A stretch of 64,000 nt of DNA from Prevotella sp. (GTDB taxonomy: Bacteria; Bacteroidota; Bacteroidia; Bacteroidales; Bacteroidaceae). The notes beneath the pieces were generated by a model. It saw only the letters and a list, made by a program, of their open reading frames with translations, ran no database searches and was not told where the DNA came from. Location: assembly GCA_017470345.1 (NCBI GenBank), contig JAFUEP010000044.1:1-64000 (forward strand), given 5' to 3'. Shown here one piece after another: positions 2,994-51,964 of this stretch (position 1 is its first letter; the number at the start of each line of letters is the position of its first letter). The translations under genes were made by a program, and so were the position numbers.

Positions 2994-5099
2994 ATGGAAC
3001 AGAAAAAACAGTACAAGCGCTACACCGTGACGTCGGCACTGCCCTACGCCAACGGTGGCGTTCACATCGGACACCTGGCCGGCGTCTACGTGCCGGCCGA
3101 CATTTATGTGCGTTATCTCAGAGCCAAGAAACGCGAGGTGATGTTCATCGGCGGATCGGATGAGCACGGCGTGCCCATCACCATCCGCGCCCGCAAGGAG
3201 GGCATCACGCCGCAGGACGTCGTCAACCGCTACCACGCGATGATCCGCGACTCGTTCGACGAGTTCGGCATCTCGTTCGACGTCTATTCGCGCACGACGA
3301 GCAAGACGCACCACCAGTTTGCCGCAGAATTCTTCCGCAAGCTCTACGATGAGGGCAAGCTGACCGAGGAGACGACGACACAGCTCTACGACGAGGAGGC
3401 CAAGCAGTTCCTGGCCGACCGCTACGTCACGGGCGAGTGCCCCCACTGCCACAACCAGGGGGCCTATGGCGACCAGTGCGAGAAGTGCGGCCGCGACCTG
3501 AGCCCCACGGAGCTGATCAACCCGAAGTCGACCATCTCGGGCTCGACGCCCGTGCTCCGCGAGACGAAGAACTGGTATCTGCCCCTGAACGAATATCAGG
3601 AGTGGCTGAAGCAATGGATTCTGGAGGAGCACAAGGAGTGGCGCCCGAACGTCTACGGACAGTGCAAGTCGTGGCTCGACATGGACCTGCAGCCCCGCGC
3701 CATGACGCGCGACCTCGACTGGGGCATCCCCGTGCCCGTGGAGGGCGCCGAGGGCAAGGTGCTCTACGTCTGGTTCGACGCCCCCATCGGCTACGTGTCG
3801 AACACGAAGGAGCTCTGCGAGCGCGACCCCGAGCGCTGGGGCTCGTGGCAGAAGTGGTGGCAGGACGACGACACGCGCCTCATCCACTTCATCGGCAAGG
3901 ACAACATCGTCTTCCACTGCATCATCTTCCCCGTCATGATGAAGGCCCACGGCGGCTATATCATGCCTGACAACGTGCCGGCCAACGAGTTCCTCAACCT
4001 CGAGAACGACAAGATCTCGACGTCGCGCAACTGGGCCGTCTGGCTGCACGAGTATCTGGTCGACTTCCCCGGCAAGCAGGACGTGCTGCGCTATGTGCTG
4101 ACGGCCAATGCGCCTGAGACGAAGGACAACAACTTCACGTGGAAGGACTTCCAGGACCGCAACAACAACGAGCTGGTGGCCGTCTACGGCAATTTCGTCA
4201 ACCGTGCCCTGCAGCTGACGCAGAAGTACTGGGAGGGCATCGTCCCTGAGCGTGGCGAACTGCTGGACGTCGACCGCAAGGCCATTGAGGAGTTCAAGGA
4301 CGTGAAGGAGAAGATCGAGTCGCTGCTGGAGCAGTTCAAGTTCCGCGATGCCCAGTTCGAGGCCATGAACCTGGCCCGCATCGGCAACCGCTACATCACG
4401 GAGTGCGAGCCGTGGAAGGAATGGAAAGCCTCCCCCGACCCCTCCGAGGGAGGGGAGTGGCTGCACGGTGAAAAGCGCGTACAGACCATCCTGAATGTCT
4501 GCTTGCAGATCGTGGCCAACCTCTCGATCGCCTTCGGACCGTTCCTGCCCTTCTCGTCGAACCGCCTGCGCTCGCTCATCAACACTAACGACCTCGACTG
4601 GGAGCAGCTCGGATCGGTCGACCTGCTGCCCGCCGGCCACCTGCTGAACGAGCCGCAGCTGCTGTTCGAGAAGATCGACGACGAGACCATCCAGAAGCAG
4701 CTGGACAAGCTGGAGGCTACGAAGAAGGCCAACGAGATGGCTACCCACAAGGCTGCTCCGATCAAGGACAACGTGGACTTCGAGACCTTCGAGAAGCTCG
4801 ACATCCGCGTCGGCCTGGTGAAGCAGTGCCAGCGGGTGCCGAAGTCGAAGAAGCTGCTGCAGTTCACCATCGACGACGGCAGCGGACAGGACCGCACCAT
4901 CTGCTCGGGCATCGCCGCCTTCTACGAGAATCCTGAGGAGCTCGTCGGCCGCCGCATCCTCTTCGTGGCCAACTTCGCCCCGCGCAAGATGATGGGCATC
5001 GAGAGCCAGGGCATGATCCTCTCGGCCGTCGACGCCGACGAGACGCTCAGCGTCGTCACCACGACGAAGGACGTCAAGCCTGGCAGCCAGGTGGGATAA
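2994..5099 (+). CDS. metG: methionyl-tRNA synthetase
   Basis: About 701 aa. It attaches Met to tRNA(Met). Class I signature HIGH is at residues 24-27, the zinc knuckle [18 protein letters not shown] lies near 145-165, the KMSKS loop is present as KISTS near 340, and the anticodon-binding domain follows. The last ~105 residues form the EMAP/Trbp tRNA-binding domain ([19 protein letters not shown]), as in the longer bacterial MetG. I chose ATG 2994; an in-frame GTG at 2973 lies in repeat sequence and overlaps mscS. An in-frame family A palindrome at 4427-4465 adds about 12 residues ([14 protein letters not shown]) after the conserved EPWK in the anticodon-binding domain. Confidence 0.97.
4427..4465 (+). 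repeat. family A palindromic element inside metG
   Basis: The sequence begins AGCCTCCCCCGACCCCTC, has a 7-bp stem (CCCCTCC/GGAGGGG) and outer AGCC/GGCT ends. It is translated in frame as [11 protein letters not shown]. Near-identical copies are at 11575-11615, 11623-11663, 12231-12270 and, inverted, 12691-12731. Confidence 0.85.
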
Positions 5100-11009: not shown

Positions 11010-11678
11010 CTAAGTATACAGACGGCGTACCAGAGGAGCAATGGCCTCGGGTACGCTGTTTTTGATGCTCTGTCCCTGACGCACCCGCTGACGGATCTCG
11101 GTGCTCGAGATGTCGAGCAGCGGGGTGTCGACGACGGTGACGGTGGGCGGCAGGGCCGTGCGGTCGATGTCGCTGCCACGGCGGGGATAGACGACGATGT
11201 GGTAGCGGCTGACGATGTCGTCAGCACGATACCACTGCGGGAAGCGCTCCCAGTTGTCGCCACCTATTAATAATATAAAGGTGTGTTGCGGATAGTCCTC
11301 GTGCAGCCGTTGCAGCGTGTGCCATGTGTAGCTGGGACGCGGCAGGTGCAGCTCGTAGTCGCTGGCGCAGATGCCCTCCTCGCCATACAGCGCGATGCGG
11401 GCCATCTGGTAACGCAGGCGGTCGTCGAGCAGGTCATCGCGCCCCTGCTTCAGCGGGTTCTGCGGCGACACCATCAGCCACACCTCGTCGAGCCCTGCCA
11501 GCCGGCGTAGCTCGCGGGCCAGGGCGATATGGCCCACATGGATGGGGTTGAAGCTTCCCCCGAAGAGGCCGATGAGCCTCCCCCGACCCCTCCGAGGGAG
11601 GGGAGGGGCTGGCGCGATGACGGGCCTCCCCCGACCCCTCCGAGGGAGGGGAGTGGCTGGCGCATTGTGGTTATTCAC
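11010..11678 (-). CDS. nadD: nicotinate-nucleotide adenylyltransferase with repeat-encoded N-terminus
   Basis: 222 aa versus about 190 normally. It converts nicotinate mononucleotide and ATP to NaAD in NAD synthesis. The catalytic motif IGLFGGSFNPIHVGH is near residues 34-48, and SSTEIRQRVRQG is the C-terminal ISST-type motif. In ordinary NadD the GLFGG motif is at residue 3-6. Here it follows about 34 residues encoded by two tandem family A repeats ([11 protein letters not shown] and [11 protein letters not shown]). The only in-frame start I find is a GTG at 11678, overlapping the gmk stop by 8 bp. The repeats appear to have replaced the original start region. Confidence 0.93.
   Translation of the reverse strand: MNNHNAPATPLPRRGRGRPVIAPAPPLPRRGRGRLIGLFGGSFNPIHVGHIALARELRRLAGLDEVWLMVSPQNPLKQGRDDLLDDRLRYQMARIALYGEEGICASDYELHLPRPSYTWHTLQRLHEDYPQHTFILLIGGDNWERFPQWYRADDIVSRYHIVVYPRRGSDIDRTALPPTVTVVDTPLLDISSTEIRQRVRQGQSIKNSVPEAIAPLVRRLYT
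11575..11615 (+). repeat. family A palindromic element, copy 1 in the nadD start region
   Basis: 41 bp, AGCCTCCCCCGACCCCTC at the left end and GGGGCTGGCGC at the right. It is translated on the minus strand in nadD as [11 protein letters not shown]. Same orientation as the second copy 8 bp away. Confidence 0.85.
11623..11663 (+). repeat. family A palindromic element, copy 2 in the nadD start region
   Basis: 41 bp, differing from the adjacent copy at a few positions (GGCCTCCC at the start, GAGTGGCTGGCGC at the end). It is translated in nadD as [13 protein letters not shown] immediately after the GTG start. Confidence 0.85.
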
Positions 11679-12675
11679 TTAGAAAGGTTTTTATGAGTGC
11701 GAGGGTTTCTCGCTTGGCCTGCTCCAGGTCGTCGTTGACGACGATGTGGTCGAACTGGGGGGCGAAGGTGAGCTCGTAGGAGGCCTTGGCCAGCCGGGCC
11801 TCGATGGCCTCGGGGGTGTCAGTGCCGCGGCCCTCGAGGCGGCGGCGCAGCTCCTCAATCGAGGGAGGCTGGATGAAGAGGCTCAGGGCCCGCTCGCCGT
11901 AGAACCGCTTGATATTGACGCCACCCTTGACGTCGACGTCGAAGACGACGTTCTGCCCCTGCGCCAGCTGCCGTTCCACCTGTGCCTTCAGCGTGCCGTA
12001 GAAGCGGTCCTCATAGACCTCCTCATACTCGAGGAACTCATCGTGCTCGATCTTCTGGCGAAACTCCTCAGGCGTGAGGAAGAAATACTCCACGCCGTCC
12101 TGCTCCGTGCCGCGCGGCGGGCGCGAGGTGCACGAAATGGAGAAATAGAGCCGCAACTCCGGGTGCTCCTGCATGAGCCAGTTGACGATGGTCGACTTGC
12201 CACTGCCGGAGGGGGCAGAGAAGATGACCAAGCCTCCTCCGACCCCTCCGAAGGAGGGGAGTGGCTGCGCACTGCCTGTGCTATTAATAGTGGGTTGATT
12301 ATCCATTACTTCTTGTATTCTTTTCATAACATATTCTGTGTTTCCTATCACCTCGTCATTGGTAAACCTTAATACTGCAAAACCGTGTTGATTCAGATAA
12401 ATAGTCCTTTCTTGGTCTGACAATGACTGATTCCCAACAAAGTGGTAGCCTCCGTCAACTTCAATCACCAAGCGCTTTGGCAGACAAACAAAGTCCGGGA
12501 TATAATCTCCTATGGGATGTTGTCTGCGGAATCTGTAACCGAACTGTTTCCCTCGCAACAATTCCCATAAAGCCGACTCTGCGGGTGTCATATATCGTCG
12601 ATGGTCTTTAGAAAACCTTCTTAGAATATCATAAGTGATACCTGCCGTCTCATACCCAAAACACTGTTTCTTCAT
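11671..12675 (-). CDS. gmk: DUF559 endonuclease-like domain fused to guanylate kinase
   Basis: 334 aa in one frame. Residues about 1-125 are a complete DUF559 domain (PD-(D/E)XK-like): MTPAESALWELLRGKQFGYR, FRRQHPIGDYIPDFVCL, then VIEVDGGYHF and GFAVLRFTNDEVI. Residues about 136-148 (QPLPSFGGVGGG) are a family A repeat. From residue 149 a full guanylate kinase follows: P-loop SAPSGSGKST, SCTSRPPRGTE, DVDVKGG; it phosphorylates GMP to GDP and is essential. Normal Gmk starts right at this point. An internal ATG near 12306 could give Gmk alone with a short lead. The DUF559 part is clearly lower in GC than its neighbours. The gene follows yicC and overlaps nadD. Confidence 0.92.
   Translation of the reverse strand: MKKQCFGYETAGITYDILRRFSKDHRRYMTPAESALWELLRGKQFGYRFRRQHPIGDYIPDFVCLPKRLVIEVDGGYHFVGNQSLSDQERTIYLNQHGFAVLRFTNDEVIGNTEYVMKRIQEVMDNQPTINSTGSAQPLPSFGGVGGGLVIFSAPSGSGKSTIVNWLMQEHPELRLYFSISCTSRPPRGTEQDGVEYFFLTPEEFRQKIEHDEFLEYEEVYEDRFYGTLKAQVERQLAQGQNVVFDVDVKGGVNIKRFYGERALSLFIQPPSIEELRRRLEGRGTDTPEAIEARLAKASYELTFAPQFDHIVVNDDLEQAKRETLALIKTFLSE
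12231..12270 (+). repeat. family A element at the DUF559/gmk junction
   Basis: 40 bp, stem CCCCTCC-GAA-GGAGGGG. It is translated on the minus strand as QPLPSFGGVGGG, a third reading frame compared with metG and nadD copies. Confidence 0.85.
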
Positions 12676-12690
12676 ATGACACCATCTATC

Positions 12691-12731
12691 GCGCCAGCCC
12701 CTCCCCTCCTTCGGAGGGGTCGGGGGAGGCT
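12691..12731 (-). repeat. family A element between yicC and the DUF559 gene (inverted)
   Basis: 41 bp starting GCGCCAGCCCCTCCCCTC. It is the inverted partner of 12231-12270 and is non-coding here, 15 bp upstream of the DUF559-gmk ATG. Confidence 0.85.
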
Positions 12732-12735
12732 CCCA

Positions 12736-13611
12736 TCACAGTGCATTCAGCACCTGCTCCTTGATCTGCTCCAGCTCGTCCTTCATCTGGACGACGATGT
12801 TCTGCATCTCGGCCAGGTTCGACTTCGAGCCTGTGGTGTTGATCTCGCGGCCCATCTCCTGGGCGATGAATCCGAGCTTCTTGCCCTGTCCGTGGCCGTC
12901 GCGCATGGTCTCGCGGAAGTACTTCAGGTGGTTCGTCAGCCGCTGCTTCTCCTCGCTGATGTCGAGCTTCTCGATGTAGTAGATGAGCTCCTGCTCCAGG
13001 CGGTTCTTGTCGTATTCGACGCCAGGGATCTGCTGCAGTCCGTCGACGATGCGCTGGCGGATCTTCTCCACCCGCGCCTTCTCGTAGGGCTCGATCTCGG
13101 CCAGCAGGCGCTCGATGTTGTCGACCTTCTCGTTGAACTTCTTCTCCAGGGCGGCACCCTCCTGGCGGCGGAAGCCGACGAGCGCCTCGATGGCCTCGAC
13201 GACGGCCTGGCGGGCGGCAGCCCACTCCTCGTCGGTCAGCACCTCGACCTCGGTCTTCGCCAGCACGTCGGGCATGCGGGTCAGCGTGTACATCCAGTCC
13301 TGGGGCTCAGGGATGCCGATGCGCCCGGCCACGCCCTTGAGCTGACGGTAGTAGTTCTCCACGAGGGCGGCGTTGACGGGCGTCGCCTCGACGCCTGCAT
13401 CGCGCTCGATCCAGAGCGAGAAGTCGACCTTGCCACGCTCCAGCGCCGTGGCAATCATCTGCCGGATCTCCATCTCCTTCTCGCGATAGAGCGGTGCGAT
13501 GCGCGTCTGCAGGTCGAGCTGCTTTGAGTTGAGCGACTTGATCTCCGCGCTGATCTTCTTATCCTTAAAGGCTACGACGGCCTTGCCGTAGCCAGTCATT
13601 GACTGTATCAT
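12736..13611 (-). CDS. yicC: YicC family protein
   Basis: 291 aa, full length for YicC/YloC. N-terminus MIQSMTGYGKA is the family signature, and the C-terminus has QEMGREINTTGSKSN followed by VVQMKDELEQIKEQVLN, also diagnostic. Members have been reported as endoribonucleases; the cellular role in Bacteroidota is not settled. It overlaps the nitroreductase stop by 4 bp and precedes gmk, an association common in many bacteria (yicC-gmk). Its stop is 4 bp from the inverted family A repeat. Confidence 0.95.
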   Translation of the reverse strand: MIQSMTGYGKAVVAFKDKKISAEIKSLNSKQLDLQTRIAPLYREKEMEIRQMIATALERGKVDFSLWIERDAGVEATPVNAALVENYYRQLKGVAGRIGIPEPQDWMYTLTRMPDVLAKTEVEVLTDEEWAAARQAVVEAIEALVGFRRQEGAALEKKFNEKVDNIERLLAEIEPYEKARVEKIRQRIVDGLQQIPGVEYDKNRLEQELIYYIEKLDISEEKQRLTNHLKYFRETMRDGHGQGKKLGFIAQEMGREINTTGSKSNLAEMQNIVVQMKDELEQIKEQVLNAL

Positions 13612-16108: not shown

Positions 16109-17581
16109 ATGGCATCATTCATCATCGAAGGCGGCCATCCGCTGAGCGGCACCATCACCCCGCAGGGCGCCAAGAACGAGGCCCTGCAGGTCATCTGTGC
16201 CACGCTGCTGACCGATGAGCCCGTCACCATCTCGAACATCCCTGACATCCGCGACGTCAATAACCTCATCCAGCTGCTCAAGGATATGGGGGTTAAAGTA
16301 ACGGCCCCCTCCAACCTCCCCCAACTGGGGGAGGCTACAGCCGCTGAAGTCTCTGGGGCAGCAGCCTCCCCCAGTTGGGGGAGGTTGGAGGGGGCCCTCA
16401 CCTTTGATGCCTCATCGCTCAACCTCGACTATCTGGAGAGCAACGAGTTCGTAGAGAAGTGCTCCCACCTGCGCGGCTCGGTGATGATGATCGGACCGCT
16501 GCTGGCCCGCTTCGGACGCGCCATCGTGGCCAAGCCCGGCGGCGACAAGATCGGACGCCGGCGCCTCGACACCCACTTCCTCGGCTTCGAGCGACTGGGC
16601 GCGCAGTTCAGCCACGTCGCTGAGCGCGGCGTCTACCAGATCTCGGCCAGCCGGCTGCGCGGCACCTACATGCTGCTCGACGAGGCCTCCGTCACGGGCA
16701 CGGCCAACATCATTATGGCCGCCGTACTGGCACAGGGCACCACCACTATATATAATGCAGCCTGCGAGCCATACGTCCAGCAGCTCTGCCGCATGCTCAC
16801 CCGCATGGGCGCCCACATCGAGGGCATCGGCTCCAACCTGCTGACCATCAAGGGCGTCGACCGTCTCGGCGGCACCACTCACCGTCTGCTGCCCGACATG
16901 ATCGAGGTGGGCTCCTTCATCGGCATGGCCGCCATCATCGGCGACGGCATCCGCATCAAGGACGTCTCGCTCAGCGACCTCGGCATCATCCCCGACACGT
17001 TCCGCCGCATGGGCATCCGCATCAAGGTGGAGGGCGACGACCTCGTCATCCCCCACATGCGCCACTACGAGATACAGTCGTTCATCGACGGCACCATCAT
17101 GACCCTGGCCGACGCTCCCTGGCCCGGCCTGACGCCCGACCTCATCTCGGTGCTCATCACCGTGGCCACGCAGGCGCGCGGCTCGGTGCTGTTCCACCAG
17201 AAGATGTTCGAGAGCCGACTCTTCTTCGTCGACAAGCTCATTGACATGGGCGCACAGATCATCCTCTGCGACCCCCACCGCGCCGTCGTCGTCGGCCACG
17301 ACCGCAAGCTGCAGCTCCGCGCCGGACGCATGTCGAGCCCCGACATCCGCGCCGGCATCGCCCTGCTCATCGCGGCCCTCAGCGCCCGTGGCACCAGTCG
17401 CATCGACAACATCGAGCAGATCGACCGCGGCTATGAGCACATCGAGCAGCGACTCAATGCCCTGGGGGCAAGGATCACGCGCTTAGCCCCCCCTACGGCC
17501 CCCGAGGGGGCTTCAATAGACCCGGCGTCTGCCAACAAAACTAATGTAGCCCCCTCGGGGGCAGAAGGGGGGGCCAGATGA
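16109..17581 (+). CDS. murA: UDP-N-acetylglucosamine 1-carboxyvinyltransferase (fosfomycin-insensitive type)
   Basis: 490 aa versus about 430 usual. It transfers enolpyruvate from PEP to UDP-GlcNAc, the first step of peptidoglycan synthesis. Family landmarks: PQGAKNEALQ (KN catalytic Lys near residue 20), GPLLARFG, and IDRGYEHIEQRL. The active-site loop reads PGGDKIGRRRLDTHF, with Asp146 where E. coli has Cys115; the Cys-to-Asp change is known to give fosfomycin insensitivity. Two in-frame palindromic insertions account for the extra length: family B (about residues 66-97) and family C as a ~30-residue C-terminal tail. It overlaps rimM by 4 bp. Confidence 0.96.
   Translation: MASFIIEGGHPLSGTITPQGAKNEALQVICATLLTDEPVTISNIPDIRDVNNLIQLLKDMGVKVTAPSNLPQLGEATAAEVSGAAASPSWGRLEGALTFDASSLNLDYLESNEFVEKCSHLRGSVMMIGPLLARFGRAIVAKPGGDKIGRRRLDTHFLGFERLGAQFSHVAERGVYQISASRLRGTYMLLDEASVTGTANIIMAAVLAQGTTTIYNAACEPYVQQLCRMLTRMGAHIEGIGSNLLTIKGVDRLGGTTHRLLPDMIEVGSFIGMAAIIGDGIRIKDVSLSDLGIIPDTFRRMGIRIKVEGDDLVIPHMRHYEIQSFIDGTIMTLADAPWPGLTPDLISVLITVATQARGSVLFHQKMFESRLFFVDKLIDMGAQIILCDPHRAVVVGHDRKLQLRAGRMSSPDIRAGIALLIAALSARGTSRIDNIEQIDRGYEHIEQRLNALGARITRLAPPTAPEGASIDPASANKTNVAPSGAEGGAR
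16303..16396 (+). repeat. family B in-frame inverted-repeat element in murA
   Basis: 94 bp. The left arm starts GGCCCCCTCCAACCTCCC, the right arm is its reverse complement (34 bp each), and each arm is itself palindromic around CCCCCAACTGGGGG; the central spacer is about 26 bp. It is translated as PSNLPQLGEATAAEVS plus GAAASPSWGRLEG. Copies with the same reading frame and spacer lie in the MacB permease (33132-33225) and cca (40420-40512). Confidence 0.9.
17484..17575 (+). repeat. family C in-frame inverted-repeat element at the murA 3' end
   Basis: 92 bp with arms AGCCCCCCCTACGGCCCC (17484-17511) and the inverted partner (17548-17575), each carrying CCCCCGAGGGGG, around a 36-bp spacer. It encodes LAPPTAPEGASIDPAS and VAPSGAEGGA, after the point where MurA normally stops. 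Confidence 0.85.
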
Positions 17582-19377: not shown

Positions 19378-20562
19378 ATGGAAAGAAAGAAACAGATTGC
19401 CATCCTCGGCTCCACAGGCAGCATCGGCACGCAGGCCCTTGAGGTCATCAGCGAGCACAGCGACCGCTATGAGGTATACTGCCTGACAGCTAACAACAAG
19501 GTGGAGCTGCTGGCCAAGCAGGCCCATCAATATCATCCCGCCGCCATTGTCATCGCCAATGCGGAGCGACGCGACGAGCTTGTGCGGCTCATGGACGACA
19601 TGCCTGACGTGAAGGTCTATGCCGGCGCCCGCGCGCTGGACGAGATAGTCGAGGCCGAGCCCATCGACATGGTGCTCACCGCCATGGTGGGCTTCGCCGG
19701 ACTGTCGCCTACCATCCATGCCATCCGAGCCCATAAGGCCATCGCCTTGGCCAACAAGGAGACGCTGGTCGTGGCGGGCGAGCTGATCTGCCGGCTGGCC
19801 ATCGAGAACCGCGCCGCCATCCTGCCCGTCGACTCGGAGCACTCGGCCATCTTCCAGAGCCTCGTCGGCGAGGACCGCAACCCGATCGACAAGATCCTGC
19901 TGACGGCCTCCGGCGGGCCCTTCCGCCTGAAGTCGATGGACGAGCTGGCCACGGTGACGAAGGCCGACGCCCTGCGCCACCCCACGTGGGACATGGGGGC
20001 GAAGATCACCATCGACTCGGCCTCGATGATGAACAAGGGCTTCGAGGTGATCGAGGCCAAATGGCTCTTCGGCGTCGAGGCACAGCAGATCCAGGTGCTC
20101 GTCCACCCGCAGTCGATCGTCCACTCGGCCGTGCAGTTCCAGGACGGATCAGTGAAAGCGCAGCTGGGCGTGCCCGACATGCGGCTGCCCATCCAGTATG
20201 CCTTCTCCTACCCCGAGCGCCTGCCCCTCAGCGGCGAACGCCTCGACCTGTTCCGCGCGCAGCACCTCGACTTCTTCGAGCCTGACATGGAGAAGTTCCG
20301 CTGCCTGAAGATGGCTTACGAGGCCATCCGCCGCGGCGGCAACATGCCCTGCATCGTCAACGCGGCCAACGAGATCGTCAACCGCGCCTTCCTCGAGGAC
20401 CGCTGCGGCTTCCTCCAGATGGCCGATGTCATCGCCGAGACCATGCAGCGCGCCACGTTCATCCCCACGCCGACCTACGACGACTACGTCGCGACCGACG
20501 CCGAGGCACGGCGCATCGCAGCGGAACTGCTTCTTAAGGGAAAAGTGAAGAGTGAAAAGTGA
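19378..20562 (+). CDS. dxr: 1-deoxy-D-xylulose 5-phosphate reductoisomerase
   Basis: 394 aa. It makes MEP from DXP with NADPH, the committed step of the MEP isoprenoid pathway. The NADPH motif is ILGSTGSIGTQALEV (residues about 8-22), the metal-binding DSEHSAIFQ is near 158, and SGGPFR and HPTWDMGAKITIDSASMMNKG follow. The last residues KGKVKSEK and the TGA stop are encoded by a family E repeat (from 20534), so the natural C-terminus seems to have been overwritten. Confidence 0.97.
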   Translation: MERKKQIAILGSTGSIGTQALEVISEHSDRYEVYCLTANNKVELLAKQAHQYHPAAIVIANAERRDELVRLMDDMPDVKVYAGARALDEIVEAEPIDMVLTAMVGFAGLSPTIHAIRAHKAIALANKETLVVAGELICRLAIENRAAILPVDSEHSAIFQSLVGEDRNPIDKILLTASGGPFRLKSMDELATVTKADALRHPTWDMGAKITIDSASMMNKGFEVIEAKWLFGVEAQQIQVLVHPQSIVHSAVQFQDGSVKAQLGVPDMRLPIQYAFSYPERLPLSGERLDLFRAQHLDFFEPDMEKFRCLKMAYEAIRRGGNMPCIVNAANEIVNRAFLEDRCGFLQMADVIAETMQRATFIPTPTYDDYVATDAEARRIAAELLLKGKVKSEK

Positions 20563-20710
20563 AAAATTTGCTGCCGCTATCCCCATGTGTTAAATAACAA
20601 TTAAATAATAATAAGTGAATAGAAAAGAAGTGCGGAAGCAAATTCTTGCGTCCCTTCGGTAGCAAGCGACCTAAGGTCGAGCGTTTCACTTTTCACTATT
20701 CACTATTACC
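20534..20710. repeat. family E inverted repeat pair between dxr and rseP
   Basis: The left arm TTAAGGGAAAAGTGAAGA continues to GTGAAAAATTTGCTGCCGC (20534-20577); the right side has CGGTAGCAAG and TTTCACTTTTCACTATTC (20659-20707), i.e. the inverted motif. The left arm is nearly identical to 45664-45707 after folE. No ORF lies between. Confidence 0.7.
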
Positions 20711-28470: not shown

Positions 28471-28573
28471 AAGTGCCGCTTCAACGAACTTGAAGCGGCA
28501 CTTTCATATACGAGAAGCGGCGCTTTCCGAAAGTAATATACCCCTATATTACCTTCGAGAAGCGCCACTTTTT
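28471..28573. terminator. convergent terminator made of family G repeats
   Basis: Hairpin 1 is AAGTGCCGCTTCAA/TTGAAGCGGCACTT (28471-28484, 28490-28503). A second structure with GAGAAGCGGCGCTTT and GAGAAGCGCCACTTTTT surrounds the inner stem TAATATA/TATATTA (28511-28573). They lie between two convergent genes and share the GAAGCGGCACTT motif with 36762-36844 and 51730-51816. Confidence 0.7.
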
Positions 28574-31012: not shown

Positions 31013-31127
31013 GATTTATTTCCTTTTTCTTCGTTATTCCGTTTTCTTTTCGTTTTCTCGTTATTTCGTTATTTCGATATTCCGAAATTCCGTTATAACG
31101 TTATTTCGTTATTTCGAGATTTCAATT
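31013..31127. repeat. degenerate CGTTATTTCG tract
   Basis: The gap between the adaptor and permease genes holds no ORF but repeats of TCGTTATTTCGTTATTTC, ATTCCGAAATTCCG and CGTTATAACG. It is AT-rich and partly palindromic, of the same general style as 38663-38911. Confidence 0.5.
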
Positions 31128-32375
31128 TTATTCATCCCTCATGGCATCGACGGGCTTGATGCTCATGGCGCGGGCAGCGGGGGCCAGTCCGGCCAGGACG
31201 CCCATCAGGGCGATGACGACGGCGGCGAGGAGGGCCGTCCAGAAGTCGACCTGGAAGTGGGCGGCGACGATGCCGTCCTCGGTGTTGCCCAGTTCGAGCA
31301 TCTGCAGGATCATGACGGCAAAGAGGATGCCGCTCATGCCGGCCACGAGGGTGAGCACGATGCTCTCGGAGATGATCTGCGAGAGGATCATGCGCGGGGT
31401 GGCACCGATAGCGCGCCGTATGCCGATCTCGGTGGTGCGCTCGCGGACGGTGACCATCATGATGTTCGAGACGCCGATGGCACCGGCCAGGAGCGTGCCC
31501 AGTCCGACGAGCCAGATGAGGAAGTTGACACCGCGGAAGAGCGAGTCGAGCAACTGGAACAGCACCTCGGTGTTGAACACCATGATGCCCTGCTCGTCGG
31601 TCGGGTCGACGGTATGGGCGCGCCCGATGGTCTCGCGGATGCGGGGCGCCAGCTCCGACATCACCACGCCGGGCCGCCCCGTCAGGGCCATCATGTCGAC
31701 CGACGTGCCGCGGTTATAGGTCTGTTGCATCAGGGTGATGGGCAGGAGCATCGTCGTGCCGGCCTCCGAGCCGAACGACATGCCGCCCGTCGTGTTGTAG
31801 TCGACACCCACGACCTGATAGTAGATGGAGTCGACGCGGATGAACTTGCCGCAGGGATCGCCCCCGCCGGGGAAGAGTTCCTTGTAGGTCTTCTTGCCGA
31901 TGACGCAGACCTTGCGGCGCTGCGCGATGTCCATGTCGTTGAGGTAGCGGCCGTAGTAGATCTTGGGCTCGTTGACCTTCTGATAGTCGGCCTCGACCCC
32001 GTTGACGCCGACCGTCGACTTGCGGTCGCCGAAGTAGGCCGTGCCACCGTTGGAGAACAGCACGGGCGAGACGACATCAAGCTCGGGGATGCGCTGCCGC
32101 AGGCGTCCGACGTCCTTATAGTCCATGTGCCAATAGCGGCCCTTGCGGAAGCCCTTGTAGGCCTTGGTCGTCGACTGTGCCCACACCATGGCGGAGTTGG
32201 TGGCAAAGCCCTCGAAGTTGCTGTTCAGCAGTTCCTTCAGTCCCTGACCGCCGCCGATGAGGGCCACGAGCATGAAGACGCCCCAGAAGACGCCGAAGCC
32301 CGTGAGGAAACTCCTTGACTTGTTGCGGGTCAGGGTGTCGAGGATTTCGCGGTAGTTGTCGATATCTATACGCAT
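31128..32375 (-). CDS. MacB-like ABC transporter permease (second)
   Basis: 415 aa. FtsX/MacB topology: one helix near residue 20-45 (SFLTGFGVFWGVFMLVALIGGG), a large periplasmic domain (about 55-280), then three helices with GVSNIMMVTVRERTTEIGIRRAIGATP between the first two, the permease signature. The separate ATPase is encoded two genes upstream. It forms a pair with the other permease of the operon, probably a heterodimer. Confidence 0.92.
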   Translation of the reverse strand: MRIDIDNYREILDTLTRNKSRSFLTGFGVFWGVFMLVALIGGGQGLKELLNSNFEGFATNSAMVWAQSTTKAYKGFRKGRYWHMDYKDVGRLRQRIPELDVVSPVLFSNGGTAYFGDRKSTVGVNGVEADYQKVNEPKIYYGRYLNDMDIAQRRKVCVIGKKTYKELFPGGGDPCGKFIRVDSIYYQVVGVDYNTTGGMSFGSEAGTTMLLPITLMQQTYNRGTSVDMMALTGRPGVVMSELAPRIRETIGRAHTVDPTDEQGIMVFNTEVLFQLLDSLFRGVNFLIWLVGLGTLLAGAIGVSNIMMVTVRERTTEIGIRRAIGATPRMILSQIISESIVLTLVAGMSGILFAVMILQMLELGNTEDGIVAAHFQVDFWTALLAAVVIALMGVLAGLAPAARAMSIKPVDAMRDE

Positions 32376-36581: not shown

Positions 36582-36881
36582 TGACTTTTCTGGCAATCCA
36601 CCAAACAATTGAAGGAAAAACATCAAAATTTAACTATAATTTAACACTTGGAATGAAAGACGAGAATAAGCGCACAATAATATTTTGTAAAGTAATTTGA
36701 CAATGCGTTGCGACAATTTCACAATCTATTCATTTTCAGTACCTTGCGAATTCGTTAAACAAGAAGCGGTGCTTTTCAATCAAAGAAGCGGTGCTTTTCG
36801 CATCAAAAAGCGGCACTTCTCTGCCCGAGAAGTGCCGCTTTTTTGAAGAAAGTTCGCGAAATGTAAAATAAAGTGACAATA
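36582..36881. other. intergenic region with family G repeats, no gene seen
   Basis: About 300 bp, AT-rich in the left half. From 36762 to 36844 it holds GAAGCGGTGCTTTTC twice and then the hairpin AAGCGGCACTTCTC/GAGAAGTGCCGCTT followed by TTTTTT; the hairpin can terminate transcription from the left or the right (the ABC exporter gene ends at 36882). Confidence 0.6.
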
Positions 36882-38662: not shown

Positions 38663-38911
38663 GTTTTTATAACAACGAATTAAGACGAATTACACGAATT
38701 GACACGAATTATTATTTATTTCACTAATTATTATTTATTTCACTAATTAATTTTTATTTCACGAATTAATTTCTATTTCACGAATCATTCGTTTAATTCG
38801 TTGTCGAATAAATTCGTTTAATTCGTCTTAATTCGTTGTTTAAAAAATTCGTTTAATTCGTTTTAATTCGTTGTCGAAAAAATTCGTTCAATTCGTTTTA
38901 ATTCGTTGTTA
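38663..38911. repeat. degenerate AATTCGT/ACGAATT tandem array
   Basis: About 250 bp between the exporter and nadK genes hold many copies of ACGAATTA (left part) and TTCGTTTAATTCGTT (right part), with TTATTTATTTCACTAATTA units between. The left and right halves are roughly inverted. No ORF, no CRISPR-like constant repeat with unique spacers. Confidence 0.65.
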
Positions 38912-39821: not shown

Positions 39822-41336
39822 TTAACTTTGGGCTACGGGGGTGAGGCCCATGGAACGGGCCTTCTCCATAAGCAGGGCCATGAGCGGCTCGCGCTCGTTC
39901 TCGACGCGGTTGTCGAGCACGGCGTCCTTCAGGCATTGCTTCAGCGTGCCCACCTCGCGCGAGGGCTTCAGTCCGAACAGCGCCATGATCTCGTTGCCGT
40001 CGATGCAGGGCTGCAGCAGTCGCTTGTAATCCTTCTCGACGAGGTCGGCCAGCTTCTCGCGCACCATGCGGAAGTTCTCGAGAAACACCTTCTTCTTCAC
40101 CTCATTCTTCGACGTGATGTCGGCCTCGCAGAGCGTCATCAGGTCGTCGATGTCGTCGCCCGCGTCGTTGAGCAGGCGCCGCACGGCCGAGTCGGTCACC
40201 TCGTTGTCGGCGATGGCCTGCGGCCGCATGTGCAGGTCTACGAGCTTCTCGACGTAGCGCATCTCCTGTCCCATGGGCAGTTTGAGGCGTCGGAAGATCT
40301 GGGGCACCATCTTCGCCCCTATATAATTATGGTTATGGAAGGTCCAGCCCACCAGCGGGTCCCATCGCTTCGTCTTCGTCTTGCCGATGTCGTGGAGCAG
40401 GGCGGCCCAGCGGAGCCAAGGCCCCTCCATCCTCCCCCCACTGGGGGAGGCTGCTGCGCCATGTACCTCAGCGGAAGAAGCCTCCCCCAGTGGGGGGAGG
40501 TTGGAGGGGGCCGCGACATTCTCCAGCACCTCCAGCGTGTGATAGAAGTTGTTCTTGTGGGCCCGGCCGTTCTTCTGCTCCACGATGTCGAGGGCCGCGA
40601 GCTCGGGCAGGATGATGCCGAGCAGGCCGGAGCGCTGCAGGTCGACGAAGCCCTTGCTGGGATGTGGGGCCATGATGATCTTGTTGAGCTCCACCTCAAT
40701 GCGCTCGCCGCTGACAATCTTGATGCGGTCGGCCATGCGCTCGAGGGCCTCGAAGGTCTCGGGCTCGATCTGGAAGTTGAGCTGCGTGGCGAAACGGATG
40801 CAGCGCATCATGCGCAGCGGGTCGTCGCTGAACGTTACCTCGGGGTCGAGGGGCGTGGCGATGATGCCGTCCTCGAGGTCGGCCAGTCCGTTGAAGGGGT
40901 CGACGAGCTCGCCGAAGCGCCCCTCGTTGAGGCAGATGGCCATCGCGTTGATGGTGAAGTCGCGCCGGTTCTGGTCGTCCTCCAGCGTGCCGTCCTCGAC
41001 GATGGGCTTGCGCGAGTCGTGGCTGTAGCTCTCGCGGCGGGCACCGACGAATTCCACTTCGAGGTCGCCCATCTTCACTTGTGCCGTGCCGAAATTCTTA
41101 AACACGCTCAGGTGGGCCCTCCGCCCGAGCTGATCCTTCAGCCGCCTGGCCACTTCGATGCCGCTGCCCACGACCACCACGTCGATGTCATTGCTGGGGC
41201 GCTCGAGGAAGATGTCGCGCACATAACCGCCCACCACGTAGCACTCCACACCCAGCTCGTCGGCCACGCGTCCTATCTGGTGAAAAATTGGCTTGTCAAG
41301 AATGACTGCCAGTTCGTCGTCAGTATATAATTTCAT
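39822..41336 (-). CDS. cca: CCA tRNA nucleotidyltransferase with in-frame family B insertion
   Basis: About 504 aa from MKLYTDDELAV, chosen by the -7 box at 41361-41368. It adds or repairs the tRNA 3'-CCA end. Head domain motif CYVVGGYVRDIFLERPSNDIDVV, then RRDFTINAMAI and LRMMRCIRFA, then an HD domain with LLHDIGKTKT. Directly before the HD motif, after LEVLENVA, about 30 residues (PSNLPPLGEASSAEVHG and AAASPSGGRMEG) come from a family B element. The natural sequence resumes at WLRWAALLHD. Confidence 0.95.
   Translation of the reverse strand: MKLYTDDELAVILDKPIFHQIGRVADELGVECYVVGGYVRDIFLERPSNDIDVVVVGSGIEVARRLKDQLGRRAHLSVFKNFGTAQVKMGDLEVEFVGARRESYSHDSRKPIVEDGTLEDDQNRRDFTINAMAICLNEGRFGELVDPFNGLADLEDGIIATPLDPEVTFSDDPLRMMRCIRFATQLNFQIEPETFEALERMADRIKIVSGERIEVELNKIIMAPHPSKGFVDLQRSGLLGIILPELAALDIVEQKNGRAHKNNFYHTLEVLENVAAPSNLPPLGEASSAEVHGAAASPSGGRMEGPWLRWAALLHDIGKTKTKRWDPLVGWTFHNHNYIGAKMVPQIFRRLKLPMGQEMRYVEKLVDLHMRPQAIADNEVTDSAVRRLLNDAGDDIDDLMTLCEADITSKNEVKKKVFLENFRMVREKLADLVEKDYKRLLQPCIDGNEIMALFGLKPSREVGTLKQCLKDAVLDNRVENEREPLMALLMEKARSMGLTPVAQS
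40420..40512 (-). repeat. family B in-frame inverted-repeat element in cca
   Basis: 93 bp. Arms GGCCCCTCCATCCTCCCC... and partner; spacer in gene sense reads CCGCTGAGGT, close to CCGCTGAAG in murA. Same peptide frame as in murA and the MacB permease. Confidence 0.88.
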
Positions 41337-45088: not shown

Positions 45089-45667
45089 ATGACACCCAAC
45101 CTTGAAGTTACCCCAATCACTGAAGAACTGGCACAACACTATCACCGCGTCCTCGAACTGCTCGGCGAAGACCCCACCCGCGAAGGACTGCTCAAGACAC
45201 CCATGCGCGTGGCCAAAGCCATGCAGGTGCTCACACGCGGCTACGACGAGGATGCCCACGCGGTGCTCCTCGGCGCCCTGTTCAAGGAAGACTACAACCA
45301 CATGGTCATCGTCAAGGACATCGACTTCTTCTCGCTCTGCGAGCACCACATGCTGCCCTTCTATGGCAAGGTGCACGTGGCCTACATCCCCAACGGCTAC
45401 ATCACCGGCCTCAGCAAGATAGCCCGCGTGGTCGACATCTTCAGCCACCGCCTGCAGGTGCAGGAGCGCATGACGATGCAGATACGCCAGTGCATCGACG
45501 AGACCCTCCATCCCTTGGGCGTCATGGTCGTCGTCGAGGCTAAGCACATGTGCATGCAGATGCGCGGTGTGGAGAAGCAGAACAGCATCACCACGACCAG
45601 CGAATTCAGCGGTGCCTTCAATCAGGCCAAGACGCGCCAGGAATTCATGAACCTCATATCACATTAA
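45089..45667 (+). CDS. folE: GTP cyclohydrolase I
   Basis: 192 aa. First step of tetrahydrofolate synthesis (GTP to dihydroneopterin triphosphate). Zinc ligands in [18 protein letters not shown] and KHMCMQMRG, and the substrate-binding stretch [20 protein letters not shown], are conserved. The TAA stop is part of a family E repeat that begins TTAAGGGAAAAGTGAAG. Confidence 0.97.
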
Positions 45668-45707
45668 GGGAAAAGTGAAGAGTGAAAAGTGAAAAATTTG
45701 CTACCGC
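45664..45707. repeat. family E element after folE
   Basis: TTAAGGGAAAAGTGAAGA through GTGAAAAATTTGCTACCGC, nearly identical over 44 bp to the element at the dxr 3' end (20534-20577). The first TAA is the folE stop. Confidence 0.75.
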
Positions 45708-46575: not shown

Positions 46576-46651
46576 CAAAAAAAATCAATACCGACCATCA
46601 TTTTCGGCGAGAAAAGTTTCATTTTATTACAAAAAACATCATTTCGAGACA

Positions 46652-46716
46652 CAAAAAAAGGGTCACCGCCGTGACCCAACCTTTGTTAACCTTAAATCTA
46701 ATACTATGAAAAACAC
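46652..46716 (-). ncRNA. candidate small RNA or attenuated leader upstream of aqpZ
   Basis: On the minus strand a strong -7 box (CGTACCTTTGCATCG, at 46721-46728) is followed after about 40 nt by a 7-bp hairpin GGGTCAC-4 nt-GTGACCC (46660-46677) and seven T (46653-46659). This predicts a ~64-nt transcript that stops 80 bp before the aqpZ promoter. The internal sequence TAGTATTAGATTTAAGG has no ORF. I have a vague recollection of similar segments in other Bacteroidales, but cannot confirm a family. Confidence 0.5.
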
Positions 46717-51526: not shown

Positions 51527-51964
51527 AAGCAAATCGTTTTTTAAAAAAAAGAATATTTCCGAGTGCAAAAATAACGATTTATTATTGAAACAACAAATTT
51601 CTTTGCACTTTTTTACCACAAAATTCTTCGGTTGACATAAATCAAGGTCAGCATCCTTAATAAAGGTGAAGTCCAAACACCGACAGCGACATGAAGGTAT
51701 CCGGATTCAGAATTTTCTTTACACTGCAAAAAGAAGTGCCGCTTCTCAGCCCGAAAAGCGGCACTTCTCGCATCAAAAAGCGGCACTTCTCGAGGCGAAA
51801 AGCACCGCTTCTTTTTTCACGATTTTACATTATGCTCATTTTCAGGTAATTACGTAATGTTTTAGAAAATTACGAATTTCTTTTACATTTCAACCTGATT
51901 TTTCTTCATAAAAGCCGATGACGGCATGATTAAAGATACAGACCCCTCCCCTTGCGGGGACGAC
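51527..51964. other. intergenic region with promoter and family G repeats
   Basis: 438 bp without a gene. The -7 box for the large fusion gene is at 51566-51573. From 51730 to 51816 GAAGTGCCGCTTCTC, GAAAAGCGGCACTTCTCG (twice) and GAAAAGCACCGCTTCTTTTTT make up a family G cluster that can act as a terminator for the lipoprotein gene on its right. A short CCCCTTGCGGGG hairpin follows at about 51947. Confidence 0.6.

Follow-up and report, generated by a model that had tools for sequence, protein, structure and literature searches.

The DUF559-guanylate kinase cassette

The window, by which we mean the whole 64,000-nucleotide stretch of Prevotella sp. DNA that was analysed, carries a DUF559 nuclease gene between two inverted copies of a palindrome (family A), joined in one reading frame to guanylate kinase (Gmk) and bordered by yicC (Table 1). 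Over the 37 nt that align, the two arms (12231-12267 and 12695-12731) show 95% complementarity, and 427 nt separate them. GC content is 0.42 within 12301-12700, compared with 0.62-0.68 in intervals without the cassette. The open reading frame yields Pfam matches to both DUF559 (PF04480; 5.5e-32) and guanylate kinase (2.8e-42), and its PF04480 score is 110.3 bits, the curated cut-off being 20.6. Between the two domains, the family A palindrome is translated as a linker that reads QPLPSFGGVGGG. The left palindrome replaces the usual gmk start, and 4 bp separate the end of the right arm from the yicC stop. These results bear out the original prediction on three points: inverted family A repeats enclosing a DUF559 frame of low GC, a 334-aa in-frame fusion, and ends located at the Gmk start and next to the yicC stop. 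An internal ATG at about 12306 on the minus strand lies a short way upstream of the left palindrome and might allow Gmk to be translated on its own as well.

Three other identities of the cassette were considered and rejected. Rfam at its gathering threshold gave no match at the cassette, which leaves no known RNA family for it. PADLOC gave only weak matches to defence systems, one of which bears the name homing endonuclease. An intein was dismissed because neither the window fusion nor 24 further fusions contained a protein-splicing (Hint) Pfam match at E 0.001.

Table 1. Positions of the cassette, its neighbours and related palindromes in the window.
Feature	Position	Strand	Remarks
Left arm, palindrome family A	12231-12270	+	C-rich tail, 2 nt, hairpin CCCCTCC-GAA-GGAGGGG; minus-strand translation QPLPSFGGVGGG
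Right arm, inverted copy of palindrome A	12691-12731	-	4 bp from yicC stop
DUF559 nuclease domain (PF04480)	12304-12621	-	Profile match and fold comparison
DUF559-linker-guanylate kinase, one ORF, 334 aa	11671-12675	-	
Guanylate kinase part	11674-12231	-	Abuts left arm, without usual start codon
yicC	12736-13611	-	Upstream neighbour, one border of insertion site
Palindrome A copy without gene	11571-11615	+	In frame, N-terminus of nadD (11010-11678, minus strand)
Second palindrome A copy	11619-11663	+	In frame, N-terminus of nadD
Further palindrome A copy	4427-4463	+	
Gene-less inverted pair (REPIN-like), C45 family	17486-17574		Family frames the DUF559 gene on contig C45
Gene-less inverted pair, fourth C/G-rich palindrome family	16295-16404		
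Gene-less inverted pair, fourth C/G-rich family	33132-33225		
Gene-less inverted pair, fourth C/G-rich family	40422-40509		

Several further elements were found elsewhere in the window. Rfam matched the FopS sRNA of Bacteroidetes (RF04319; 79.1 bits) at 46650-46716 on the minus strand. A 22-nt repeat around AAGCGGCACTT forms arrays at 28471-28526, 36764-36841 and 51756-51811, with copies in both direct and inverted order. Tandem repeats of 35 nt around TTTAATTCGTTGT occupy 38664-38707 and 38792-38910, with an inverted copy close by, and a repeat of 8-nt period (TTTCGTTA type) extends over 31040-31129. A AAGTGAAGAGTGAAAAGTG-type repeat occurs as two 44-nt copies with 98% identity (20534-20577 and 45664-45707).

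Palindromes with and without a nuclease gene

The window belongs to a MAG (G000) of 2.67 Mb in 68 contigs, which is 61.55% complete. Its three DUF559 genes each lie between inverted palindromes of a different family, namely family A in the window, GCCCCC-GA-GGGGGC on contig C45, and CCCCCTCTAAGATTAGAGGGGG, or family T, on contig C68. The core pattern of family A, with at most one mismatch, matched 23 times in this genome, and the reversed control did not match at all. Solo A palindromes are present in frame not only in nadD (Table 1) but also in P-type ATPase and EamA transporter genes. Arms of the fourth family, which forms gene-less pairs in the window, were found at none of the three DUF559 genes of this MAG; since the MAG is incomplete, a DUF559 gene of that family may lie in the missing part.

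Family T illustrates the gene-less pairs best. In G000, 28 of its 32 copies form 14 inverted pairs, 13 of them spaced 93-94 bp and one 80 bp. Two of these pairs, on C31 and at C47:75098, are identical in their surroundings over 1600 bp, and hence the 14 pairs represent 13 distinct sites. The start of C31 (G000:C31:1-1600) is an exact repeat of part of C47, which reflects either a duplication or redundant assembly. The T pairs of G000 are much alike and contain the spacer in either orientation. Around many of them lies a longer inverted repeat, formed by TGGTGATAAATGCCCGA and its complement, of which there are two variants. None of 100 genomes contained a T target palindrome without interruption. 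Pairs of another family, U, occur in several genomes; their palindromes were kept, while the five spacers that we read differ. The C-rich tails point outward in the A pair, the window cassette and the T pairs, and inward in the U pairs, the U cassettes and the T cassettes.

Single palindromes were also seen in direct tandem arrays with a spacing of about 44 or 57 bp (G016:C1:294763-295139, G016:C1:371608-371942 and positions 614-837 of locus L278).

Inverted arms at DUF559 genes

We searched for PF04480 in 119 genomes of the genus and the order, including the window's own, and obtained 130 matches in 61 genomes. The main set consists of 84 near-full-length matches; 15 more near-full-length matches, one of them too close to a contig end, and six divergent ones were tested as well, and the remainder are fragments or weak matches. 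For each locus, 250 bp on one side was aligned to the reverse complement of the other side, with a cut-off score of 18. Inverted arms were detected at 61 of the 84 main loci and at 8 of the 14 near-full-length loci that had first been left out (69/98 in total), with scores below the cut-off in the other 23 and 6. In contrast, of 1240 random intervals taken from these loci, only 3 reached the cut-off, which excludes chance. None of the six divergent matches (L298-L303) had arms at the cut-off; these lie in frames of about 970-1125 aa and probably represent a different, non-mobile use of the domain.

A second set was formed by named organisms, using the best 80 of 529 matches to a Prevotella-like query, of which one lacked a flank. 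Among the resulting 79 loci from these best 80 of 529, arms were found at 57 and fell below the cut-off at 22; the corresponding counts were 3 of 321 for other ORFs and 5 of 1782 for intervals. Five named loci share DUF559 DNA with the main set; without these and without repeats, 53 of 72 loci from the best 80 of 529 had arms. Hence, such repeats are far commoner at DUF559 genes than at other ORFs or random intervals, as the original prediction would have it, and the association extends to DUF559 genes elsewhere.

The arms share a common design. Hairpin stems of at least 5 bp (median 8) were present in 60 of 61 arms, and the 5' arm is C-rich. Reading by eye revealed a C-run tail 5' of the hairpin in 46 of the 61; several of the other 15 have a G-run 3' of the hairpin, and hence the same design on the opposite strand. 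C-rich hairpins occurred on both flanks of 66 of the 84 main loci, on one flank of 16, and on at least one of 82, versus 1, 55 and 56, respectively, of 930 in the comparison set.

Pairing of nuclease lineages and palindrome families

Arms and nucleases diverge together. For 64 cassettes from the main set, a Mantel test of protein distance against arm similarity gave r = -0.50, a value reached in 0 of 2000 permutations. Cassettes with distant proteins within one genome have arms about as unlike as those from different genomes. Outside the main set, a locus on G023:C49 (L287) has a protein nearest the C45 type and arms of the C45 type. Such co-divergence could result from co-inheritance of neighbouring DNA, and therefore copies away from the cassette matter.

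Among 100 genomes of the genus, family T was present in only three (32 copies in G000, 5 in G062 and 1 in G040), and G000 and G062 carry the two T-framed DUF559 genes. Family U was present in 15. The genomes with an intact U-framed nuclease contain 17 (G058), 11 (G031), 11 (G043) and 3 (G039) U copies, and G028 contains two, one beside a broken DUF559 gene whose two pieces (86% and 78% identity) are nearest the U type. U copies without a match to a U-type nuclease were found in G055 (18), G071 (5), G035 (2) and seven other genomes (1 each). DUF559 had been searched in 72 of the 100 genomes; for these, the hypergeometric probability calculated by hand was about 0.001 for T (2/2 among 3 positives), and for U it was about 1e-4 (5/5 among 13, G028 included).

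We also counted one generic palindrome pattern, leaving out six genomes with DUF559 fragments or weak matches. The median count was 8 in 40 genomes with DUF559 versus 0 in 26 without (p = 1.6e-6, uncorrected for phylogeny), and five or more palindromes were present in 25 of the 40 versus 1 of the 26. Y1_Tnp genes were present in 63 of the 100 genomes. In genomes with DUF559 the median was 7.5 with Y1_Tnp (n = 26) and 8 without it (n = 14); in genomes lacking DUF559 it was 0 both with (n = 15) and without Y1_Tnp (n = 11). Hence, counts of this one generic pattern track DUF559 and not Y1_Tnp.

Host genes and the gmk site

DUF559 genes were often part of larger coding sequences: 34 of the 84 sit in ORFs of at least 175 aa, and the host part was recognised in 31 of these 34 (25 by Pfam, and six Gmk by their start motif). 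Recurrent hosts are Gmk (8), IspF (5), RNase H (4), LeuRS (3, two of which are cut by the locus end) and an AAA-domain helicase-like protein (2). Single cases are an ABC ATPase, DegT aminotransferase, NAD epimerase, GAF, SpoU methylase, DprA, PAD, an amino-acid kinase and, weakly, GNAT. Together with the solo copies in nadD, cassettes in Gmk, LeuRS, IspF and DprA agree with the earlier proposal of small in-frame elements that sometimes carry their own gene.

The gmk gene was present in 93 of the 100 genomes of the genus, and 8 of these 93 have an in-frame DUF559-Gmk fusion (28 of the 100 genomes were judged by frame length alone), so that the fusion is not conserved in all relatives. Decayed DUF559 remains at gmk in G012 and G055. 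Of 30 gmk loci that were read, 21 have the cassette-free yicC-gmk junction foreseen for strains lacking the cassette, in which the yicC stop is followed by gmk after 17-209 nt; seven contain a cassette, and in two yicC was not matched by the search pattern. In a Gmk tree built from 30 sequences, without G009, the fusions are scattered, and in the tree of the main set 7 of the 8 fused DUF559 domains group in a single clade, with a support of only 0.55. The pattern fits repeated gain, loss or homing alike.

Relationships of the nuclease and signs of movement

The nearest sequence and fold matches of DUF559 are 3hrl, I-Bth0305I and Vsr, in agreement with the earlier assignment to Vsr-related PD-(D/E)XK-like nucleases. 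Its catalytic domain is homologous to PD-(D/E)XK and Vsr/EDxHD nucleases, and acidic and His residues are conserved; cleavage is predicted. The window protein and the 24 further fusions match PF04480 and have no Y1_Tnp match (PF01797) at E 0.001. Estimates of dS were obtained for 9 of 20 close pairs, in which dN/dS was 0.05-0.18, and the nuclease is under purifying selection.

Cassettes occupy different sites in different genomes. G084 and G097 each have two DUF559 copies in one contig, with main homology blocks of about 670 bp (88%) and 620 bp (84%), respectively. These blocks are approximately of cassette size, and shorter additional matches include palindromes and repeated pieces. In three species of Deinococcus, the hpa operon on plasmids (L167, L250, L253) carries a cassette at three places. 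The cassette of D. proteolyticus adjoins hpaB, and that of strain NW-56 lies between an oxidoreductase gene and hpaE, which overlap in D. proteolyticus. Neither a target-site duplication nor a base-exact empty site was found in the gmk loci that were read or, for the T target, in the 100 genomes.

DUF559 loci outside the Bacteroidota

From 47 phage and plasmid-collection records, 18 non-Bacteroidota loci were chosen for variety. Seven have arms (four Deinococcus, Pseudanabaena, Sphingomonas and Qipengyuania), versus none of 57 other ORFs in the same loci. The 11 loci below the cut-off are from N. gonorrhoeae, Picosynechococcus, Synechocystis (two), Azospirillum, E. coli, Photobacterium, Sinorhizobium, Methylobacterium, Sutcliffiella and a phage contig. 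For N. gonorrhoeae, the arm score was 18.0 when flanks of 400 bp were used and 10.0 when they were 300 bp. Picosynechococcus and Neisseria nevertheless have hairpins of this design near DUF559, below the cut-off.

The DUF559 gene of E. coli K-12 is ycjD, located between fabI and sapF, and its product was placed among the PD-(D/E)XK nucleases in 2005 (PMC1189080, consulted in part). In K-12, the space between ycjD and fabI holds two repeats that we take to be BoxC, and one of these overlaps ycjD at its 3' end. The name and family size of BoxC are given in the section consulted of PMC2267715. A strict pattern of C-tail and C/G-rich hairpin matched 11 times in one 4.9 Mb E. coli record, twice beside ycjD. 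The repeats are on one side only, and inverted arms around ycjD were not detected (score 10.0). At least 80% of the fabI-ycjD-sapF stretch was covered in 3334 of the 5375 genomes with any match. Three other genomes that we inspected have efflux genes in the fabI-sapF interval, as described in the part consulted of PMC12817139. In E. coli, this interval is occupied either by ycjD and two BoxC-type repeats or by efflux genes of the eef type.

A probable mobile system of nuclease and palindromes

We consider it likely that the cassette is a copy of a mobile element that consists of a Vsr/EDxHD-type nuclease, DUF559, and its cognate hairpin palindrome. The underlying observation is confirmed as real and general. 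It is also wider than first proposed, comprising several DUF559 lineages and palindrome families, abundant gene-less pairs, many host genes and other phyla. The original prediction went further and regarded the repeats as mobile ends recognised by the DUF559 protein. The association with arms, the pairing by lineage and the dispersed copies all favour this view, and from them we infer, with good support, that DUF559 recognises and moves the repeats.

In such a system, the nuclease would bind its own palindrome, in which two bases stand between the C-rich tail and a C/G-rich hairpin, and would cut or nick at or beside it. Recombination or repair might then carry copies of the palindromes, with or without the gene, to new sites. 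Since the translated palindromes form flexible Pro/Gly-rich linkers, insertions that keep the frame would be tolerated, and at an essential gene such as gmk the survival of the element would be tied to the host gene. The logic of REPIN/RAYT would thus be run by an unrelated enzyme, and the RAYT/REP-like logic of the original prediction is recognisable in the gene-less inverted pairs and in the nuclease between cognate palindromes. Binding, cutting and transposition by DUF559 are what we infer from these patterns. Several observations count against the mechanism: arms are below the cut-off at 23 of 84, 6 of 14 and 22 of 79 loci and at all six divergent matches; outside the Bacteroidota, 7 of 18 loci have them; neither a target-site duplication nor a base-exact empty site turned up; family U is abundant in G055 and present in G071, which have no U-type nuclease among their matches; and the T pairs are oriented oppositely to the T cassettes.

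A rather unlikely explanation is homing, in which the nuclease would cut cassette-free alleles at one fixed site, for example gmk, and recombination would copy the cassette in, as in an intein but without splicing. The palindromes would then be linkers or boundaries and not the mobile unit. The homology of DUF559 to the homing endonuclease I-Bth0305I is consistent with homing, as are the recurrent hosts (Gmk 8, IspF 5, RNase H 4) and the scattered Gmk fusions whose DUF559 domains nevertheless fall, with one exception, in the weakly supported clade (0.55). However, homing leaves unexplained the gene-less pairs and solo cognate palindromes, which number up to tens per genome, and the insertion into so varied a set of genes.

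We give still less credence to the view that the palindromes are moved by a RAYT-like Y1 transposase or by host repair, with DUF559 as cargo or as a defence or repair nuclease. Y1_Tnp genes are common in the genus (63/100), and a role in very-short-patch repair has been proposed for a Caulobacter DUF559 protein (PMC12907096, consulted in part). However, the arms pair with the nuclease lineage. Moreover, for the one generic pattern that was counted, genomes with DUF559 and without Y1_Tnp had a median of 8 palindromes (n = 14), whereas those with Y1_Tnp and without DUF559 had a median of 0 (n = 15), which leaves Y1_Tnp unsupported as the mobiliser.

It seems very improbable that the hairpins merely regulate or terminate the DUF559 gene and were spread by ordinary recombination, without a role in movement. 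Hairpins are common at gene ends, and some of ours directly follow stop codons, but they also lie in frame inside coding genes, flank the DUF559 gene on both sides, and recur as similar inverted pairs at 13 distinct places in one genome. Finally, an assembly artefact or chance in a low-quality MAG, suggested by the 61.55% completeness, the 68 contigs and the exact 1600-bp repeat of C47 at the start of C31, is refuted by arms at two of the three DUF559 genes of G016, a genome in one contig, in named isolates such as Capnocytophaga bilenii (L183) and Flavobacterium hercynium (L232), and in complete Deinococcus plasmids.

The best reading of these data is a REPIN/RAYT-like system of mobile palindromes with a Vsr/EDxHD-type nuclease, which would extend to Deinococcota, Cyanobacteria and Alphaproteobacteria as well. 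E. coli YcjD and BoxC are perhaps a member of it. We see about as much reason to accept as to doubt a broader proposition, namely that DUF559 proteins are the dedicated nucleases of mobile C/G-rich palindromes across phyla, including BoxC with YcjD and the hairpins of cyanobacteria, Deinococcus and Neisseria, and that this class plants its nuclease gene in frame, without splicing, inside essential proteins.

Short palindromic repeats occur in numerous bacterial genomes and, to our knowledge, many of them have no known mobilising enzyme. If our reading is true, a nuclease paired with palindromes in several phyla would form a second enzyme class beside RAYT, and an unexplained kind of bacterial mobile DNA would be accounted for. 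A widespread domain of unknown function with a solved structure (3hrl) would gain a function, the in-frame palindromic linkers and added nuclease domains in housekeeping enzymes such as Gmk and LeuRS would be explained, and selfish DNA would have a way of tying itself to essential genes. The ycjD-BoxC pair would make the system testable in a laboratory strain.

Comparison with known systems

Our literature search covered open full text, and within it we found neither a description of DUF559 with palindromes nor a link between ycjD and BoxC. Several known systems resemble parts of what we observed.

Selfish spread is known for EDxHD homing endonucleases. Among these, I-Bth0305I, whose home is a phage group I intron and which its PDB entry describes as a mobile intron protein, has a catalytic domain homologous to DUF559. 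In contrast to I-Bth0305I, DUF559 was seen with neither intron nor intein; its gene is flanked by palindromes and in many cases is translated as part of a host protein. Vsr and the DUF559-containing protein VsrA of Caulobacter differ by their repair role, which for VsrA has been proposed, and the main text of the VsrA paper mentions no palindromes (PMC12907096).

BoxC of E. coli has the same design as the DUF559 arms, a C-tail followed by a C/G-rich hairpin, but it lies on one side of ycjD and does not enclose the gene between inverted arms. Rickettsia palindromic elements (RPE), which we compared by description, are likewise palindromic elements in frame in coding genes. Many in-frame insertions are reported for them, and they are about 150 bp long with a short ORF (PMC10969869); the part of this description that was consulted mentions no nuclease, whereas DUF559 cassettes carry one. 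RPEs end in CGTC, and according to the portion consulted of a 2013 survey, CGTC repeats are apparently without a dedicated transposase (PMC3733652).

REPIN/RAYT shares with the DUF559 system short hairpin palindromes, dispersed gene-less inverted pairs, lineage-specific families and a nuclease gene between its own palindromes, here at 61 of 84 loci and at 57 of 79 from the best 80 of 529 matches. However, the REPIN/RAYT enzyme is of the HUH/Y1 type and its hairpin has the foot GTAG, whereas DUF559 is of the Vsr/EDxHD type in the PD-(D/E)XK fold group and its arms have a C-rich tail and about 2 nt. Because the enzyme is not HUH and the GTAG tag is absent, the DUF559 system is not a member of REPIN/RAYT. 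Moreover, unlike in REPIN/RAYT, the gene-bearing copy is often itself inserted in frame in host genes.
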